Position numbers and translations under genes: made by a program | Source: a virus | IMG/VR virus record: IMGVR_UViG_3300030102_000030 | Coordinates: 1 to 23,596 of that record | DNA length: 23,596 nucleotides | Reading direction: 5' to 3' (one strand) | Shown here: positions 2,216-11,782 of the stretch, piece by piece | Numbering within the stretch: the stretch's first letter is position 1 | Layout: every line of letters begins with the position of its first letter | The notes under the pieces: model-generated | Told to the model about the DNA's origin: nothing | Databases searched by the model: none | The model's input: only the letters and a program-made list of their open reading frames with translations

Positions 2216-3532
2216 TTATGTTGATGTTTCATACGCTACTGTGCATAACATATAAATACTTGCTGCATTTGATATTGTTTTAAAAACAGTAGTATTTGCT
2301 CCTCTAAGTCTTATATAATTTTGACCATTTAAAACTGATCCTATAAGAATGTCTGTTCCATAATTAGAAGTGCCTACTGGTCCATGAGCAGCACCACTAG
2401 TTCCATTAACTGCGCTATAAGGTAATCCCGATATATATGTATTCCCTGCGGCTCCAGAGACAGTAACATTTGCAAAAGTCGCAGTAGCTGTAACTAATCT
2501 TCCAACTTTAGTGTAAGTGCCAACACCAGTTGGCGAACTCCCTGCCGTTGTAGAACCAATAATAGTAGGCGTCCAAGTTCCCTCTTCGTAATCGTCTAAA
2601 GCGTTAGCGGCTGCTGTATCTCCGTTGAACGTTAGACCGCCTCCAGAGAGAACACGCAATTGTTCAGTGCCAGATCGACCAATAATTAATTCATTTGAAC
2701 CACCACTTTCAATAGTATTATAACCAGAGTTTCCATTTAACTGTAAACGTAGTTGAGGTGTTGTTTTTTCGATATGTAATGCTGCATCAGGGCCGTTTGT
2801 GTTATCTGTTATATGAACATTACCACTACTATTAATACGCATACGTTCTGTATAAGTTTCAGAACCAACATTTCCAGTAGTTGTATATAATGCCATTTGA
2901 GAAGCAGCAGGAGAACCAATAGCTGAACCTGCACCACCATTTACACTAAATTGTGAAAACGCACCTGACGAAGCAGATATAACTTGTTTTACATCAGCAG
3001 ATGAAGGAGATGTAGTTGTACCAAGAAGTAAGTCGCCACTGCTATCCAGACGCATTACTTCAGTTGGTGCATCGTTGTCACTACCATCGTTGGTCTTGAA
3101 GATTAAGTCACCCTTCTGATCATCAGATGTGCCATCGTGTGATGCCTGTATCTGAGCCAGTGTACTAATCTCACCACCTGATTGCTCACCCTTAAATGAT
3201 ACTGCACTTTCTCTACCACCGTCTGTATCTTCATGGGTAGGGTTCTTCAGTGTTACATTATCAAATGTTTGGTTAACTAGTTCAAAGGTATCAAATGTTT
3301 CAAAGTCAAGTACGTCACTTGCACTTGCACCTGTTGTTAATACAATGTCACTACCATTTGTGGCTGTATAGTCAGTACCATTTATAAGCCGTACACCATT
3401 GAGATACACATTAATGAAGTTACCATCTGTGTAACCGTTAGTGTTAAAAGTCGTTTGACTAGCAGTAGCAGTAAAGCTTTGTTTTCTTTGTATGCCCTGT
3501 GGTACTGGTAGTGGGCCTATATATCCTGACAT
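2216..3532 (-). CDS. Tail fibre, 438 aa
   Basis: A fibre assembled from recognisable pieces. MSGYIGPLPVPQGI (1-14) resembles the start of the 612-aa fibre. Residues 16-85 (RKQSFTATASQTTFNT...VYLNGVRLINGTDYTATNGSDIVLT) are a module common in cyanophage and T4-like fibres. Residues 98-166 are module A. YTERMRINSSGNV lies at 227-239, and module B (LTFNGDTAAANALDDYEEGTWTP) begins at about 300. The C-terminal domain after module B (about 322-438) is beta-rich, ends SIYMLCTVAYETST, and is probably the receptor-binding tip. It lies 10 nt after the 612-aa fibre stop, with AAGGAGA upstream. The host receptor is unknown. Confidence 0.83.
   Translation of the reverse strand: MSGYIGPLPVPQGIQRKQSFTATASQTTFNTNGYTDGNFINVYLNGVRLINGTDYTATNGSDIVLTTGASASDVLDFETFDTFELVNQTFDNVTLKNPTHEDTDGGRESAVSFKGEQSGGEISTLAQIQASHDGTSDDQKGDLIFKTNDGSDNDAPTEVMRLDSSGDLLLGTTTSPSSADVKQVISASSGAFSQFSVNGGAGSAIGSPAASQMALYTTTGNVGSETYTERMRINSSGNVHITDNTNGPDAALHIEKTTPQLRLQLNGNSGYNTIESGGSNELIIGRSGTEQLRVLSGGGLTFNGDTAAANALDDYEEGTWTPTIIGSTTAGSSPTGVGTYTKVGRLVTATATFANVTVSGAAGNTYISGLPYSAVNGTSGAAHGPVGTSNYGTDILIGSVLNGQNYIRLRGANTTVFKTISNAASIYMLCTVAYETST
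2492..2635 (-). repeat. Shared fibre module B, copy 1
   Basis: Codes for about residues 300-347 of the 438-aa fibre (FNGDTAAANALDDYEEGTWTP then GTYTKVGRLV). It matches the copy at 1140-1280 and joins shaft to tip domain in both proteins. Confidence 0.75.
3035..3241 (-). repeat. Shared fibre module A, copy 2
   Basis: Codes for residues 98-166 of the 438-aa fibre and matches the copy at 5067-5273. In one fibre it sits near the N-terminus and in the other after an added 60-residue domain, which shows module reuse in different contexts. Confidence 0.75.
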
Positions 3533-3542
3533 TATCTTCTCC

Positions 3543-5381
3543 TTAACAAGCCATCAATACACATGGCACTAAATATGAATTATCATCATATGTATGGCTT
3601 ACATTTGTTGATGTAACTTTTGCTATTGTTTTACTTCGAACAATGTCATCACCTTGTGGTTTAGCTGTGCCATCCCCTGCTGACATAAGTAGATCGCCTC
3701 TAGCAACTGTTGTGCCTTGAGCAATACGAATAACCATATCGCCTGTCATTGCTACGTTCATGTCATTGGTAAAAACATCATCATCGTCATCCCAATTTAC
3801 AAATACTCCTGCAACATTTGGATCACCTTCTACAGAAGATACCGCCATACAGTTTAACTGTTCATTGTTTTCTGTCCATGCATCTTGTGCTTCAGTTTCT
3901 TGACCTATTACATTTCCATTAACGTCAAGTATATCATCACCAACTTCTTTGGCTGCGTGTGTCCACACTGCCATTTGATCAAGGTTAGTCATTACTGTAC
4001 CTTTAACAATAGAGGTATCTTTTGTGTTATCTGCAAGCTGCGACCAACGTGATAAGTGACCACCATTGTATGATACAGTTGTACCTGATACAGATATGTT
4101 ACCTTCTTCAACACCTTGACCGTAAAATTGAAATATGTTTCCATCAGTACCCATTCTATTAAAATAGCCAACAGTAGCAGAAACTTTTTGACTAATTATA
4201 TAACCACCGCCAATAGTAACGTGTTCTTTAGTACTTGTATTGTTACCACCAACCGATCCTGCACCATCAAAGTCACCTTTCTTATCAAAACAAAAAGTGT
4301 TGTGTAAATTTTCTATTTCTAAACATTCCTGATTATTAACCTGAAGTCTTAAATGGTCTGTGGAGTGATTATATTGCCACATGCCTATGTTGCCATCACT
4401 TGTGTCTCCAAACTGAAGACTTGAGTAGCCTGATGTTCCACCAACAATTCTTAAAGCAGTGTTGTCAGATGTATCAGCACTGTCGTTCATTCTAATATCT
4501 TGAGGTGAAACAATAGTTAATGCTTCTGTATCTGTAGCCCCTGCCACTTCCCCTGCACTAGCTACATAAAATTTTAAGCTACCATTTTCTGAACCATCAG
4601 CAACGTTATCAGCTTTACAAAGAATTACACCATAATCCATTGCATTTCCTGCACTGTCTTTTCCTTGGAAATCTATTCTGCCAAGAAGATCATTGTCAGC
4701 AGGGCTTGCAGAGTTACGATAGAAAACTAGATCAGGCGCAGATGACGACCCTGCATCTGTATTTTCAATAATAATCTGATCAGTAGTATCATCCCCTTTT
4801 ATGTGGAGTTGGGCAGATGGGCTTGTTTCCCCAATCCCAACATTACCACCTTGTGCAAAAGTAGCAACAGTTCCTGAAGCGTCTTTTATAAACAAAGAGT
4901 GTGCTGAACCAGATTTTTCTATTGTAAATTTTGTTGTATTTTGATTTGCAAATATTATTCCTGTTGCTTCTTGTGTAGTAGAATTAGAAACTCTAATAAA
5001 AGCATCAGTTGCTTTTTGTATATCTAAAGGATGACTTACATTTGCTGTACGACCAATAGCTACCTGTTGAGATGAGTCAATCCTCATAGCTTCAGTAGGA
5101 CTAGCACCATCAGAACCGTCATTGGTCTTGAATATCAGATCGCCTTTTTCATCGTCTGATGTACCGTCATGTGAAGCCTGTATCTGTGCAAGTGTAGTTT
5201 CTTCTCCACCAGACTGTTGTCCTTTAAACGTGACTTTACCTTCACGTCCACCATCGGTATCCTCGTGTGTGTTATTTACAATAGTAACTTCTGGTGTAGA
5301 ATCTGTAGTTGTAATGTCTCCTGTTACATCTACAGTGTCTGCACTGATATTTACAACAGGAGTACCGATATATTTACTCAT
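3543..5381 (-). CDS. Tail fibre with distinct C-terminal domain
   Basis: A 612-aa fibre. The N-terminus MSKYIGTPVVNISADTVDVTGDIT is a common marine-phage fibre start. Residues 37-105 carry a module (NTHEDTDGGRE...QIQASHDGTSDD...DLIFKTNDGSD...AMRIDSS) also present in the 438-aa fibre. NVGIGETSPSAQLHIKG (180-196) is a typical shaft repeat. The C-terminal about 195 residues (from FQFYGQGVEEGNISVSGTTVSYN, about 417, to SHTYDDNSYLVPCVLMAC) form a separate domain. I recall it from many marine phage fibres; it resembles in pattern the self-cleaving intramolecular-chaperone (peptidase G2-like) ends. That assignment and any cleavage are uncertain. The acidic patch NWDDDDD near 529-535 could bind metal. 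Confidence 0.83.
   Translation of the reverse strand: MSKYIGTPVVNISADTVDVTGDITTTDSTPEVTIVNNTHEDTDGGREGKVTFKGQQSGGEETTLAQIQASHDGTSDDEKGDLIFKTNDGSDGASPTEAMRIDSSQQVAIGRTANVSHPLDIQKATDAFIRVSNSTTQEATGIIFANQNTTKFTIEKSGSAHSLFIKDASGTVATFAQGGNVGIGETSPSAQLHIKGDDTTDQIIIENTDAGSSSAPDLVFYRNSASPADNDLLGRIDFQGKDSAGNAMDYGVILCKADNVADGSENGSLKFYVASAGEVAGATDTEALTIVSPQDIRMNDSADTSDNTALRIVGGTSGYSSLQFGDTSDGNIGMWQYNHSTDHLRLQVNNQECLEIENLHNTFCFDKKGDFDGAGSVGGNNTSTKEHVTIGGGYIISQKVSATVGYFNRMGTDGNIFQFYGQGVEEGNISVSGTTVSYNGGHLSRWSQLADNTKDTSIVKGTVMTNLDQMAVWTHAAKEVGDDILDVNGNVIGQETEAQDAWTENNEQLNCMAVSSVEGDPNVAGVFVNWDDDDDVFTNDMNVAMTGDMVIRIAQGTTVARGDLLMSAGDGTAKPQGDDIVRSKTIAKVTSTNVSHTYDDNSYLVPCVLMAC
5067..5273 (-). repeat. Shared fibre module A, copy 1
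   Basis: Codes for residues 37-105 of the 612-aa fibre. Nearly the same protein sequence is encoded at 3035-3241. The DNA copies differ at many third codon positions. Confidence 0.75.
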
Positions 5382-7258: not shown

Positions 7259-9682
7259 TTACCTTCGTGTGTTGGTTGTGTACTCTAATGTAATAGCGTC
7301 TAGTGAAAATGGGGGGTCTACGCTATCTGATGTGTATTGTAGAGATACAACAAAAGCTGATCCAATTATTTGTGTTTCAAACAGTGTTTTTAGTTTGGAG
7401 CTATACACTGCAGATGATCCAAATGTAGCTTGACCCATAAATGCAACAGTTCCTGTGGCGTTATTAAAGTCAATCTTTGTTGGCTGTACACTATTCTTTT
7501 GGTCAAAGTCTAGTTTCAAACTTACGTCAAACGAAACACTACCTTGTGGATCAGTATACAAAAACATCTTGTAAAATGTCTTACGTATTCTTGGATCATT
7601 GATTGGCATATACGGTGTAGCAAAAGTTGTTTGAATGTTACTTCCATCAAAGCTGTTACCTTCTTCCATCTGGTATAGGTATCCATCATCGTTTGCAAAT
7701 ACAATTGTTTCTGCATTTTGAAAAAACCTACTGTCTGCTACGTATGCTCTTATTCCTCTTAAATCTGCCCATGACATTCCTTCGCCACCTTGACCTGCCA
7801 TCTGTGTACCAAGTATGCCTTGAGCGTTTGCTTGTCCTATATTATTATTGTAACCTAGTATTCTATACTGTGACTTATTACGTATAACTACACTTGTAAA
7901 AGATGTGTTGGCTGTAATAAAGTCTGTTACTTCTTTCTGTATTGTTTTAGATACAACACCTAATCCAAAGTCACCAATTCTTTCTGTACCACTTAGAAGT
8001 CGTAGGCCATCTGGACCAAGAAACATTACGTCACCACCAACTTCTTGTATTGTGTCTTTGTCTACACAACCAATGTCTGTAGTTACTGGTTGTAAGTTAA
8101 AGTCTCCTATTGTATTTCCTAGTAGTTGAAATATAGATGACTCAGTAAAGATAATAAGTTGTTGCCTAAATACTATTAGACCAGTGATGTTTGCTCCTAC
8201 AGATATTGTACCAGAACCATTGGCTGCTGTAAAGTCAGTATCTGTAAACGGTGCAGTAAATGTTAATAAATTATTTTTACCAAAAAATAACTGGTTCTTA
8301 AAACTTACTACAAACTCTGCTGCTCTTACATCTGTTGGTGCATCATTTAATGCTGTAAACTGAGAACCATTGTATAATGCAGGAACGTTGATACTATCAA
8401 CTATTGCAATTTTTTCTGTTCCTGTATAGTTATACCTAGAAAATCTAGTTTTACCACCATTTTCTCTTGACGTACTTAAAAAAGTTAGTGCCGCATCATT
8501 TGCAGGTGAACTAGCAAGGGCAGGATCAATCGCTATTGTAGCTCCACCTGATGTAACTGTTGGTGTTGCAGTTACTGTATATATTTTATCTACACCTGCA
8601 ATTTTAAATATATCGCCTAGTTGTGGTGTAGAGTCTAACCCATCTACTACTAAACTGCTACCTGTTTGAGATGCACCATTTACTAATACAGTTCCGTATG
8701 TAGGTACGTTTACAAGTGAGAACCCAGTGCCAGATGTTTTGATTAAACTTTCGTTTCTAGCCACAATAACTGAGTCAAGAAATACGCCACAACCTATTGT
8801 AAGATGTTTAGTAGTTGTGCTTGTAAACTCTACGTCATCTCCATTAGCAGGTGAAGCAGTAAGAGCAGGTGATATACCTATTGTTGCTCTATTTTCGTCA
8901 TCATCAAAGGTAACGCTTGCACCGATAGTGTATTCAGTTTTAAACTCTAATGCAGTGTCATCTGTAAGAACTAATGATAGTGTATCTGCTGCACTACCTA
9001 TTGTAACATTCGGTGATGAAAAAGCTTGTACTGTTGTTCCTCTTGGTATACCAGTACCAACAATTTCCATGCCTGTTTGTATTGTGCCTGTTATACCGTC
9101 TATTGCAAAAGTAGTAGTTTGAAATGTAAACTGTAAAGCTAAGTTATCTGCTACAGTTACGTTACTATTTAATACTACAGTAAAGTTACCTGCTGCCCCT
9201 GCTGTAACACTAGATACTGTAACGTTACTTCCAATACCTACCCCTGTTACAGCTTGCCCTTGTGCAATAGTGCCTGAAGCAACTGTATCTACAACTATAG
9301 TGTTGTCTGCTGTTACTGCACCGTTAACAAGAGCGGTTGGTCCATTTGCAGTGGCAATAGTAGATGTACCATTTATGTTTGCAGTACCGTGTACTAGTTT
9401 AAACTTATCACCTTGTTCTGGTGTTTTTCTAATATTAGCAATGTTTAAAGTTGTACCAGTTTGTGATGCACCGTTTACTACAGGTATACCATAGGGTGGT
9501 ATAATGTCTAAGTCATACTTATCATAACCTAGTATTCGTTTATATCCACCCTCAATAGATGGTTCAAAGTTTCTGAGTATTCGTGCAGAACCGGGCATTT
9601 GCATACCCTGCTGCAATGGACTCATGTTTGTTATTAGCCCACCGCTAAACTGAATGGGAAATGTTTGACGATTGGTAGGCAT
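7259..9682 (-). CDS. Tail nozzle / stabilisation-like protein with nested insertion
   Basis: An 807-aa protein likely forming the distal part of a short tail. The N-terminus (FSGGLITNMSPLQQGMQMPGSARILRNFEPSIEGGYKRILG) is the 'GG...N' entry of podovirus tail tubular B/nozzle and stabilisation proteins. From about residue 405 a propeller-like core appears: FVVSFKNQLFFGKNNLLTFTAP, ITGLIVFRQQLIIFTESSIFQLLG, IGCVDKDTIQEVGGDVMFLGPDGLRLLSGT. Between them lie two copies of a VNGASQTG domain (69-97 plus 249-289, and 333-404). The first is split by about 150 inserted residues that look like two further short repeats (G.AVTGVGIGSNVTV and GMEIVGTGIPRGTTV). The upstream ribosome binding site is weak (AGGGTG). 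Fibre genes follow. Confidence 0.83.
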   Translation of the reverse strand: MPTNRQTFPIQFSGGLITNMSPLQQGMQMPGSARILRNFEPSIEGGYKRILGYDKYDLDIIPPYGIPVVNGASQTGTTLNIANIRKTPEQGDKFKLVHGTANINGTSTIATANGPTALVNGAVTADNTIVVDTVASGTIAQGQAVTGVGIGSNVTVSSVTAGAAGNFTVVLNSNVTVADNLALQFTFQTTTFAIDGITGTIQTGMEIVGTGIPRGTTVQAFSSPNVTIGSAADTLSLVLTDDTALEFKTEYTIGASVTFDDDENRATIGISPALTASPANGDDVEFTSTTTKHLTIGCGVFLDSVIVARNESLIKTSGTGFSLVNVPTYGTVLVNGASQTGSSLVVDGLDSTPQLGDIFKIAGVDKIYTVTATPTVTSGGATIAIDPALASSPANDAALTFLSTSRENGGKTRFSRYNYTGTEKIAIVDSINVPALYNGSQFTALNDAPTDVRAAEFVVSFKNQLFFGKNNLLTFTAPFTDTDFTAANGSGTISVGANITGLIVFRQQLIIFTESSIFQLLGNTIGDFNLQPVTTDIGCVDKDTIQEVGGDVMFLGPDGLRLLSGTERIGDFGLGVVSKTIQKEVTDFITANTSFTSVVIRNKSQYRILGYNNNIGQANAQGILGTQMAGQGGEGMSWADLRGIRAYVADSRFFQNAETIVFANDDGYLYQMEEGNSFDGSNIQTTFATPYMPINDPRIRKTFYKMFLYTDPQGSVSFDVSLKLDFDQKNSVQPTKIDFNNATGTVAFMGQATFGSSAVYSSKLKTLFETQIIGSAFVVSLQYTSDSVDPPFSLDAITLEYTTNTRR
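8471..8686 (-). repeat. Second, uninterrupted VNGASQTG domain copy
   Basis: Codes for residues 333-404 (VNGASQTGSSLVVDGL...TPQLGDIFKI...ATIAIDPALASSPANDAALTF). It pairs with the split copy whose halves give VNGASQTGTTLNI...TPEQGDKFKL and ATIGISPALTASPANGDDVEF. Confidence 0.65.
8939..9391 (-). repeat. Insertion splitting the first VNGASQTG domain
   Basis: Codes for about residues 98-248 of the nozzle-like protein. The flanks at 9392-9478 and 8816-8938 together match the uninterrupted copy at 8471-8686. The insert holds two related units with the motif G.(A/E)(V/I).G.GI..G(S/T).V. The exact borders are uncertain by a few codons. Confidence 0.55.
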
Positions 9683-9685
9683 ACA

Positions 9686-10405
9686 TTAAAACACCCTAAA
9701 AGAACTAACTGATGTATTACTTTGTGTTATAGCAGTAGACCTAACATAGTCATATCTGTTTACGTACAGACTACGCATACTTTTTATTTCTTCCATAAAC
9801 CTTGCCTGTGTTACTTGTGCTTCCTGTGTTTCACCTCTAAACATATAGGCAAAGTGCATAGCTCCATTTACAATAATGTAGCGAAACTGTTCTGGTACAG
9901 TAGGAACATCTGTAGTGTTTAATAGATCAACAGGTAAACGATAATACTCATAAACATATTCATATGCTTTATCTGGATTTTTTACAAAGCCAAATTCTTG
10001 GTTGGGTGCTCTAAAAACAAAATCGGGCATTGATCTGTTTGCAGATGTATTATATTCTATATCTACATGTTTATCTAAATATTCTTCGTATGACATTACT
10101 TTAATACGTCTAGTATCATTTCCTAGTGTATCATTTCGTTTGATTCTAAAACTATCAAAGTCTATTGTTTTTGCATCTGTAGGAAATGCATATCGTACAA
10201 CACCTGCAGTCATAGTTTCATCTGCTGTTACATGGTTAAAGGGCCATTCATATTCGTGTTGGTTTATATAACGTATAGATGAATTTACTGCATCTTTAAT
10301 CATTGAGTATTCACCAGTGGCTGTACCAAAGTTAGTTGTTGTTAGCTCAACTTCATTAAGTCTACGGTTTACGTCATTGACAAGTCCAAGATAATCATAT
10401 GCCAT
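9686..10405 (-). CDS. Head-tail adaptor-like protein
   Basis: A 239-aa protein that probably sits under the portal and joins it to the tail, like P22 gp4-type or SU10-type adaptors. It begins with a helical segment (MAYDYLGLVNDVNRRLNEVEL), then IKDAVNSSIRYINQHEYEWPFNH, a pattern typical of podovirus adaptors in which helices precede 'EWPF'. A beta region (RFAFP-type VRYAFPTDAKTIDFDSFRI; EFGFVKNPDKAYEYVYEYYRLP) and a C-terminal helix (FRYIIVNGAMHFAYMFRGETQEAQVTQARFMEEIKSM) follow. AAGGAA precedes the ATG. Its position directly before the nozzle-like gene strongly supports the call. A tail tubular protein A (T7 gp11-like) is the closely related alternative. Confidence 0.82.
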   Translation of the reverse strand: MAYDYLGLVNDVNRRLNEVELTTTNFGTATGEYSMIKDAVNSSIRYINQHEYEWPFNHVTADETMTAGVVRYAFPTDAKTIDFDSFRIKRNDTLGNDTRRIKVMSYEEYLDKHVDIEYNTSANRSMPDFVFRAPNQEFGFVKNPDKAYEYVYEYYRLPVDLLNTTDVPTVPEQFRYIIVNGAMHFAYMFRGETQEAQVTQARFMEEIKSMRSLYVNRYDYVRSTAITQSNTSVSSFRVF

Positions 10406-10757: not shown

Positions 10758-10943
10758 TTAATCCTCATTTGCATAAACAACACGATCTGCTGATGTAGGT
10801 TTTCTTTCTACAGAAACTCGTCTATCTTGTTGTTCTACTATTACTGTTCGTTCTTTTGTTGTAGTCAATGTTGCAGGATCAATGTATACAATCCTTGATT
10901 GACTTCTAACTAAAACTGTTCTTTCAAACTGCGTTGATGGCAT
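10758..10943 (-). CDS. Small charged beta protein (61 aa)
   Basis: A 61-aa protein of unknown function with alternating Val/Arg strands (RTVLVRSQSRIVYID, ERTVIVEQQDRRVSVE, ADRVVYANED). The three similar short strands look like a tiny repeat. It starts on the A of the upstream stop (TAATG), so translation is probably coupled to the repeat protein. Small genes of this type occur between head and tail genes in marine phages. Confidence 0.7.
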   Translation of the reverse strand: MPSTQFERTVLVRSQSRIVYIDPATLTTTKERTVIVEQQDRRVSVERKPTSADRVVYANED

Positions 10944-11782
10944 TATGCTGCCCTCGGTAATATAACAGTTCTACGTTTATTGTATCTGTGTTTAACTGCC
11001 TCGTAATCAAATTCAATTGATGTTACGTTTCCTACTGGTAAATTTACTATAGCAGAAGAAGACACACTTGCTAGTTTTTCAGTAATAACTACATTGATAC
11101 TACCAATTGTACCTGTTGCTGATACAGTTTGTAAACTCTCATCTACTGTAGCTTCTGGTTCTGTTACACTACCAGTTAGTTCTAGTCCTACTATTTCTGC
11201 TTTAGAAGATGATCTACCAGTTGCTGTAGGAGTAGCAAATGTACCAACTACTGTTCCTAATTTTTCAGATACATTTGGTTTAATTGTACCTATTGAAAAT
11301 GTAGCTGTTACATTTAATAAGTTTTCAGCAGTTTTAGCTTCTACTGTAGCTATTGAACCTGTAGCAGATACGCTTGCTAGAGTTTCACTTATATTTACTT
11401 TTAGTGTACCTATCGCACCTGTTGCTGATACACTGTTTAAGTCTTCATCTACCTGTGGTTCTATTGTGCCTATAGAACCTGTGGCAGATACACTTCCTAA
11501 TTCTTCTGCAACATTTTCTTTTACTGTGTTTATGCTGCCAGTAGCACTTACACCAGTAAGTGTTGCGCTATTGCCTATTCCTACAGAACCTATTGCACCT
11601 GTTGCTGATACACTGAGTAGGTTCTCAGATATGTCAATTTCAAAACCACCAACGCTTACAGTTTCTATTGCGCCAGTTGCACTAACTCCTGATAAGGCTA
11701 CATTGGGTGATACTTTACCGTATCTAGCAGACCCATGCCTACCTGTACCATACAGGGCATCAGAGGAGTCATAGAAAGACAT
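10943..11782 (-). CDS. Protein built of 20-residue VSATG repeats
   Basis: A 279-aa protein of unknown function, dominated by a tandem repeat of the form VSATG(A/S)IGT(V/I)...V.E.L.S. VSATG copies begin at residues 33, 58, 78, 98, 118 and 138, with degenerate copies near 158, 178 and 201 and a further copy at 220. From residue 58 to 158 the period is exactly 20 residues. Each unit has two short beta-strand patterns, suggesting a beta-solenoid or a repetitive fibre. The N-terminus (MSFYDSSDALYGTGRHGSARYG) and the basic C-terminus (VKHRYNKRRTVILPRAA) are non-repetitive and may be docking ends. It overlaps the next gene by 1 nt. A head-fibre or head-tail decoration role is inferred from position. 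Confidence 0.8.
   Translation of the reverse strand: MSFYDSSDALYGTGRHGSARYGKVSPNVALSGVSATGAIETVSVGGFEIDISENLLSVSATGAIGSVGIGNSATLTGVSATGSINTVKENVAEELGSVSATGSIGTIEPQVDEDLNSVSATGAIGTLKVNISETLASVSATGSIATVEAKTAENLLNVTATFSIGTIKPNVSEKLGTVVGTFATPTATGRSSSKAEIVGLELTGSVTEPEATVDESLQTVSATGTIGSINVVITEKLASVSSSAIVNLPVGNVTSIEFDYEAVKHRYNKRRTVILPRAA
11048..11686 (-). repeat. 60-nt tandem coding repeats
   Basis: In-frame repeats encoding the VSATG units. The regular core is 11297-11611, with units 60 nt apart. Codon choices differ between copies, so the protein pattern is better kept than the DNA; this argues for old repeats under selection rather than a recent expansion. Confidence 0.75.

Follow-up and report, generated by a model that had tools for sequence, protein, structure and literature searches.

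How does a phage tail protein come to carry small domains nested inside another small domain, and what becomes of such an arrangement among its relatives? The question is raised by a minus-strand gene (7259..9682) of a viral record of 23,596 bases, IMGVR_UViG_3300030102_000030, which was analysed over its whole length (the window). The record also encodes a terminase, an SU10-type portal, a major head protein and an SU10-type adaptor; the adaptor gene (239 aa, 9686..10405, minus strand; SU10_adaptor, E 6e-21) is the upstream neighbour of the gene in question and is uncut here. The gene product, 807 aa long, was assigned to the tail nozzles of SU10/P22 gp10/T7 gp12-type fold by its match to phrog_5107 (E 9e-48) and by its AlphaFold2 fold. 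Its nearest isolate homologue, 79.7% identical across all 807 aa, comes from Roseobacter phage CRP-345, in which adaptor and nozzle genes are ordered as in the query and a putative tail fibre gene then follows. The accessible part of a study of HMO-2011-type phages lists CRP-345 among its isolates and describes this marine phage group as widespread (PMC9038755).

The predicted structure supports a podovirus tail nozzle of the SU10 gp17/P22 gp10/T7 gp12 type, in keeping with the earlier note, which had called the protein nozzle-like. The AlphaFold2 model of the 807-aa protein, made from 100 aligned proteins, has a pLDDT of 88.3 and a pTM of 0.82, and over the whole chain it matches the solved Pa223 tail protein (Z 30.1), the SU10 nozzle (Z 28.4, 12% identity), P22 gp10 (Z 24.7) and the T7 nozzle (Z about 22); Foldseek returns the SU10 nozzle with E 3.1e-19. 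An amidase function, after the name borne by phrog_5107 and by the RefSeq records for the HMO-2011 and CHOED homologues, was rejected, as Pfam at E up to 1 gives only DTP-pb9_B-dom and the fold is that of a nozzle. The label is found on the nozzle because the annotation of HMO-2011-like records carries that name; other RefSeq homologues are named “tail structure protein” or “phage stabilization protein”. In the public records of HMO-2011, CHOED and Slicky01, the nozzle homologues appear as “amidase” or “dimodular nonribosomal peptide synthetase”, neither of which is backed by the fold and Pfam result of the query.

The earlier note had described two VNGASQTG...SPAN domains lying side by side, the first split by about 150 residues made of two more related units. 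The domain pair is real. Of the two domains, A begins at aa 68 (nt 9481) and B at aa 333 (nt 8686), with the end of B close to nt 8480, and these positions fit the region 8471-9478 given at the time; a degenerate DNA pattern for VNGASQTG has two matches in the whole record and none in a reversed control, and A with its halves joined aligns to B with a local score of 131, against a maximum of 59 in 2000 shuffles. An HMM built from uncut A and B domains (47 seeds, the query's own B included) matches B unbroken at aa 330-401 (8480..8695, minus strand, as are all features of this gene; E 4.5e-43, the query B being one seed) and divides A, model positions 4-38 falling on aa 65-114 and 39-68 on aa 246-286. 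Following the N-terminal part (aa 1-60; 9503..9682), which is also present in base nozzles with neither A nor B, domain A as a whole extends over aa 65-290, with its first half at aa 65-96 (9395..9490, the boundary to the linker being approximate) and its second half at aa 248-290 (8813..8941, delimited by the HMM and by an alignment to T5 pb9 with Z 9.6). Between the halves lie a linker (aa 97-116; 9335..9394) and the two inserted units, C1 (aa 117-186; 9125..9334) and C2 (aa 187-247; 8942..9124), both placed there by a C-unit HMM with seeds taken from this nozzle family (aa 124-185, E 1e-20, and aa 187-247, E 5e-28). Where the description failed is in the adjacency of A and B, which we reject: about 40 residues of propeller (aa 291-329; 8696..8812), with predicted strands at 295-301, 304-309 and 312-316, intervene, part of which can be aligned with base nozzles. 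So separated, A and B are placed in two different loops. The remaining propeller and the C-terminal part occupy aa 411-807 (7262..8452).

The two inserted units are related to each other, their local score of 62 being reached by none of 2000 shuffles (maximum 61). B is likewise similar to C1 (score 56, reached by 3 of 2000 shuffles) and to C2 (53; 4 of 2000), and a comparison of the A/B-type with the C-type profile gives a probability of 79% (P 1.6e-5), whereas eight column-shuffled controls reach no more than 7.1% and a reversed one 0.2%. These profiles suggest that A/B-type and C-type units are probably distant relatives, a kinship that rests on the B matches and the profile comparison because A itself, aligned directly with C1 and with C2, scores no better than chance (860 and 1417 of 2000 shuffles, respectively).

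How a domain can be interrupted in this way is suggested by the predicted structures. A second AlphaFold2 model, of aa 61-290 alone (A, C1 and C2), has a pLDDT of 91.4 and a pTM of 0.80, and in both models single long strands are predicted to run from A into C1 (aa 93-119, including the whole linker), from C1 into C2 (aa 182-199) and from C2 back into A (aa 244-260). Repeated units are thus present in the prediction, and the single continuous fold that the earlier note had named as the opposing outcome was not obtained. The best structural match of the A+C1+C2 model is T5 pb9 88-170 (76 residues, Z 9.6, rmsd 2.4, 21% identity), spread over model residues 1..228; we read this match, known as ranges only, as A aligned across both halves with the guests skipped, because so few pb9 residues reach both ends. 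B scores 30.6 bits against the Pfam family DTP-pb9_B-dom (PF21430; curated cut-off 27) in one stretch, aa 337-391, and has a further match, at 228-303, to a major-head-protein family (E 1.3e-7); for A of the query the same Pfam scan lists no stretch of DTP-pb9_B-dom. The ends of the A region are also aligned by the coat proteins of P22 (222-344; Z 7.9, rmsd 5.7) and Sf6 (223-345; Z 7.7, rmsd 3.5). C1 aligns with T5 pb9 (Z 7.9), the tail-tip proteins of phages chi (Z 8.3) and lambda (Z 6.0) and a JBD30 baseplate protein (Z 7.7), as well as with common small barrels, including F1-ATPase and aIF2gamma, at Z about 6-7. In the models, host domain and guests resemble variations on a single small barrel fold, which for the C unit is suggestive only. 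Other searches returned little: Foldseek of the A+C1+C2 model gave no PDB match at E < 0.001, the antibody chains listed having low probability and E values of 0.66 or worse, and found 17 predicted viral proteins whose TM-scores against the query are about 0.2-0.3; profile searches against the sequences of solved structures gave only antibody chains for the A region (E 0.21 or worse) and nothing at E 0.1 for the whole family; and the C unit matched no Pfam family at E up to 10.

Relatives without the insert, for which the earlier note had proposed to look, do exist, and together with the other forms they make up a natural series. Four IMG/VR scans, giving at most 80 each of 127, 597, 595 and 597 relatives, and 12 isolates were compiled; among 331 loci with a nozzle match, 37 without a clear start or stop were left uncounted. 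The resulting 295 full-length proteins (282 loci, some on the same contig, the 12 isolates and the query) reduce to 139 representatives after clustering, and the counts of forms hold among the loci listed and are not population frequencies. By HMM class, no A, B or C unit is found in 171 of the 295, and base nozzles of about 500-515 aa have neither A nor B; 46 proteins have A and B both uncut (651-723 aa, including the forms near 660 aa; the 723-aa form, L150, has a partial C-unit match close to its C-terminus). Two C units lie within A in 57 proteins (793-808 aa) and one in 4, and A instead holds a domain of the A/B type in 9 (722-729 aa). In three more proteins a C unit sits in B as well, two of them with one C unit in A and the third with two (866 aa), B being split at a place homologous to the split of A. 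A third unit occurs close to the C-terminus in another 3, and C units are present with neither A nor B in 2. Empty, single, double and triple forms thus all occur. A later scan for the guest in B listed 32 loci, 17 of which are nozzles with one C unit in A and one in B, two of them on contigs already in the set. The isolates HMO-2011, CRP-207 and CRP-1 have neither A nor B.

Two further observations were made on relatives. A FTYTGVTSTTFTGVTR-type piece of 56-61 residues stands at about the B site in 8 of 16 proteins compared (L212, L206, L235, L251, L201, L236, L198 and L214); a scan of this piece, made for L212 only, also gave matches to baseplate, fibre and virion families. CRP-212, CRP-235 and HTVC103P have other, different pieces at about that site. 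In L145 and L155, domain A is found in a reading frame apart from the rest of the nozzle, through either a sequencing error or a genuine frameshift.

We consider it likely that this is a nozzle of the HMO-2011 type with duplicated domains, A and B, in two loops, and that the hairpin of A takes guests which are swapped by recombination. Its decoration would consist of small beta domains resembling the B domain of T5 pb9; two of these, A and B, products of an old duplication, would occupy two loops in the first part of the propeller. Guests would enter A at the tip of one beta-hairpin, and their end strands would prolong the two strands of the hairpin; this continuity of strands would keep both folds intact and let the guests project as a stalk, presumably outwards from the tail. 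Guests, be they C units or a domain of the A/B type, would be gained, lost and exchanged via recombination between related phages, and C units would land in further tail proteins too. Projecting in this way, the guests may make contact with the host surface or with neighbouring fibres, and their exchange would then tune adsorption.

A purely structural role, in which the inserts brace nozzle subunits or hold the short tail fibres without host contact, is the strongest competitor, and we hold it to be rather unlikely. It draws on SU10, where, according to the accessible part of the structural study, the Ig-like nozzle domains contact neighbouring subunits and the short tail fibre (PMC9509320). 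However, relatives whose cores are 93-97% identical carry zero, one or two units, which argues that assembly can probably do without the units, and a bracing part might be expected to be more constant. Since the units look dispensable in this respect, we tentatively favour contact with the host surface over bracing as their role.

The history of the units was followed on a core tree of 66 proteins and 482 insert-free columns, 58 rows of which carry A and B; L169 (340 aa, its start possibly wrong) and the distant Bas95, counted above, were left out of the trees. Across the 58 A/B-bearing rows the state of A changed at least 14 times, and the starred branches by themselves require that uncut A changed 9 times, the A/B-type guest 5 times, a pair of C units 4 times and a single C unit 3 times. 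Overall, the states of A are clustered (16 changes including the outgroup, compared with a shuffled mean of 33.2), whereas the A/B-type guest is spread no differently from chance (7 changes, a count as low arising in 153 of 500 shuffles). In the trees of the units, 26 uncut A domains form one clade (100/100) separate from 45 B domains, so the A/B duplication predates the spread of the A/B-bearing group. With insert-free relatives at hand and the content of A varying, the order read from the query earlier, duplication and then insertion, is supported. The A/B-type guests also form one clade (100/100), suggesting that this guest arose once and became scattered. The C guests in B are one clade (94/93), yet they account for three changes on the core tree; as these guests group together, we do not claim that B was entered three times independently. 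Single C guests in A, C units of adaptors and those at the C-terminal site do not group by place in a tree of few columns. Because the guests in B and the A/B-type guests are each one clade, few insertions with spread and loss fit as well as many insertions; by these trees, the content moved or was lost many times, and each kind of insertion may have started only a few times.

Part of this record could also be produced by local tandem duplication within one gene, followed by loss and fast divergence with no transfer, for C1 resembles C2, and in the lineage of the query the first units and the second units each cluster (96/92 and 100/99), as if inherited. Within the lineage the inserts also evolve faster than the core: between the query and L065, A with its inserts has dN 0.33 and dS 1.44 and the core dN 0.08 and dS 1.01, with dN/dS below 1. 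We regard this explanation as improbable, on three grounds. First, C units occur in other genes. The adaptor of L073 (2062-2994, plus strand) contains an in-frame C unit of 71 residues, a site that is empty in L066, from loci 94-96% identical to L073, with a few base differences at the joints, and L367, another virus, has a C unit at the same adaptor loop; when the adaptor C unit was compared by tblastn with 50,697 phage records, nothing matched at E 1e-3. L372 (2611-3300, plus strand) and L373 have a C unit within a protein of another phage, assigned in L372 to Phage_min_tail (PF05939) by Pfam in two stretches, and L357 has an open frame, at least 1732 aa long and matching a virion structural family, that contains four C-unit matches, one of them partial. 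Second, close pairs are mosaic in their DNA. L053 and L081 are 96% identical over aa 1-60, 67% in A and then 80%, 83% and 89%, and L061 and L055 are 100% identical in the stretch separating A from B, compared with 89% and 92% at their ends. Third, distant nozzles often share C units more alike than their cores. Among 16 representatives with C units, with the last 330 aa of the nozzle as the core, the best C pair exceeds the core in 22 of 42 pairs whose cores are less than 60% identical, in 9 of 37 at 60-80% and in 1 of 41 above 80%. Picking the best of several possible pairs of units biases these counts towards C, and in L164 and L166 the core includes a C unit. In close pairs, therefore, the guests differ more than the core, and in distant pairs often less. 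The clearest case is L069 and L167, with 86% aa and 71% nt identity in the C unit and 48% aa and 58% nt in the core. As such distant units are only about 70% alike in DNA, any transfer of this kind was not recent; L069 and L167 perhaps have their C unit in common by transfer nonetheless. Recombination is the route by which we think the guests were exchanged.

That the length variants are artefacts of metagenome assembly is very improbable: most come from metagenome contigs, A lies in a separate frame in L145 and L155, and the 866-aa form rests on a single contig (L061 and L334 being one and the same), but the isolate genome of CRP-345 carries the two-unit form of 807 aa, the other main forms recur on several contigs and the inserts are in frame.

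Exchange of guests in the hairpin of A, the reading we prefer, can be set beside several known systems. The SU10 nozzle, gp17, has four Ig-like nozzle domains between blades 2 and 3, which straighten upon genome release, as the available text of that study reports (PMC9509320). The query resembles SU10 in the nozzle fold, in beta domains inserted in the propeller and in the adjoining SU10-family adaptor, and differs from it in the varying copy number and the guest within a guest seen here across relatives. The likeness to the B domain of T5 pb9 lies in the score of query B above the PF21430 cut-off and in pb9 spanning both ends of the split A; here, however, the protein is a podovirus nozzle with several copies, one of which hosts guests. 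The coat proteins of P22 and Sf6 have an insertion domain described as a six-stranded beta-barrel, the I-domain (PMC11243222, in the part accessible); their alignment with the ends of A, at Z < 8, may reflect a common arrangement only, and theirs is an insertion in a capsid protein, whereas the nozzle holds a changing set. For tail sheaths, the accessible text describes a conserved core with a varying number of additional, outward Ig-like beta domains, some built from two separate chain stretches (PMC9230969); that is another protein, compared there across diverse phages, whereas near-identical phages differ in content here. In the available part of a survey of domain shuffling in phages, the hotspots named are fibres, spikes, endolysins and DNA polymerases, with no mention of the nozzle there (PMC10684548). 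That phage tails carry accessory beta domains and exchange them is already known, as far as these sources are accessible (PMC9230969, PMC10684548). No publication was found for “nested domain insertion” with “phage”, and the titles and abstract openings covered, a scope outside which most subscription journals fall, hold no earlier description of a nested, changing nozzle socket.

The nozzle of a widespread marine phage group thus offers one hairpin with different guests in close relatives and naturally empty sites, which makes two questions testable: what purpose the accessory beta domains of tails serve, and how one domain can take in another without harm to either. More tentatively, phage tail genes may share mobile beta-domain cassettes that stack in standing nozzle sockets and tune host contact. 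If so, the ends of a cassette would adjoin and the A/B type would have its own receptive hairpin, allowing cassettes within cassettes, and the nozzle loops and the A hairpin would be sockets with a content that keeps changing between near-identical phages.

The swapping of small pieces appears to rebuild this part of the tail often. Elsewhere in the window, a gene at 10943-11782 (minus strand) encodes a 279-aa protein built from SVSATGAIGT-like repeat units, and two adjoining minus-strand genes (2216-3532 and 3543-5381) resemble each other over a long stretch around ASHDGTSDD...KGDLIFKTNDGSD, which may be a fibre module common to both.
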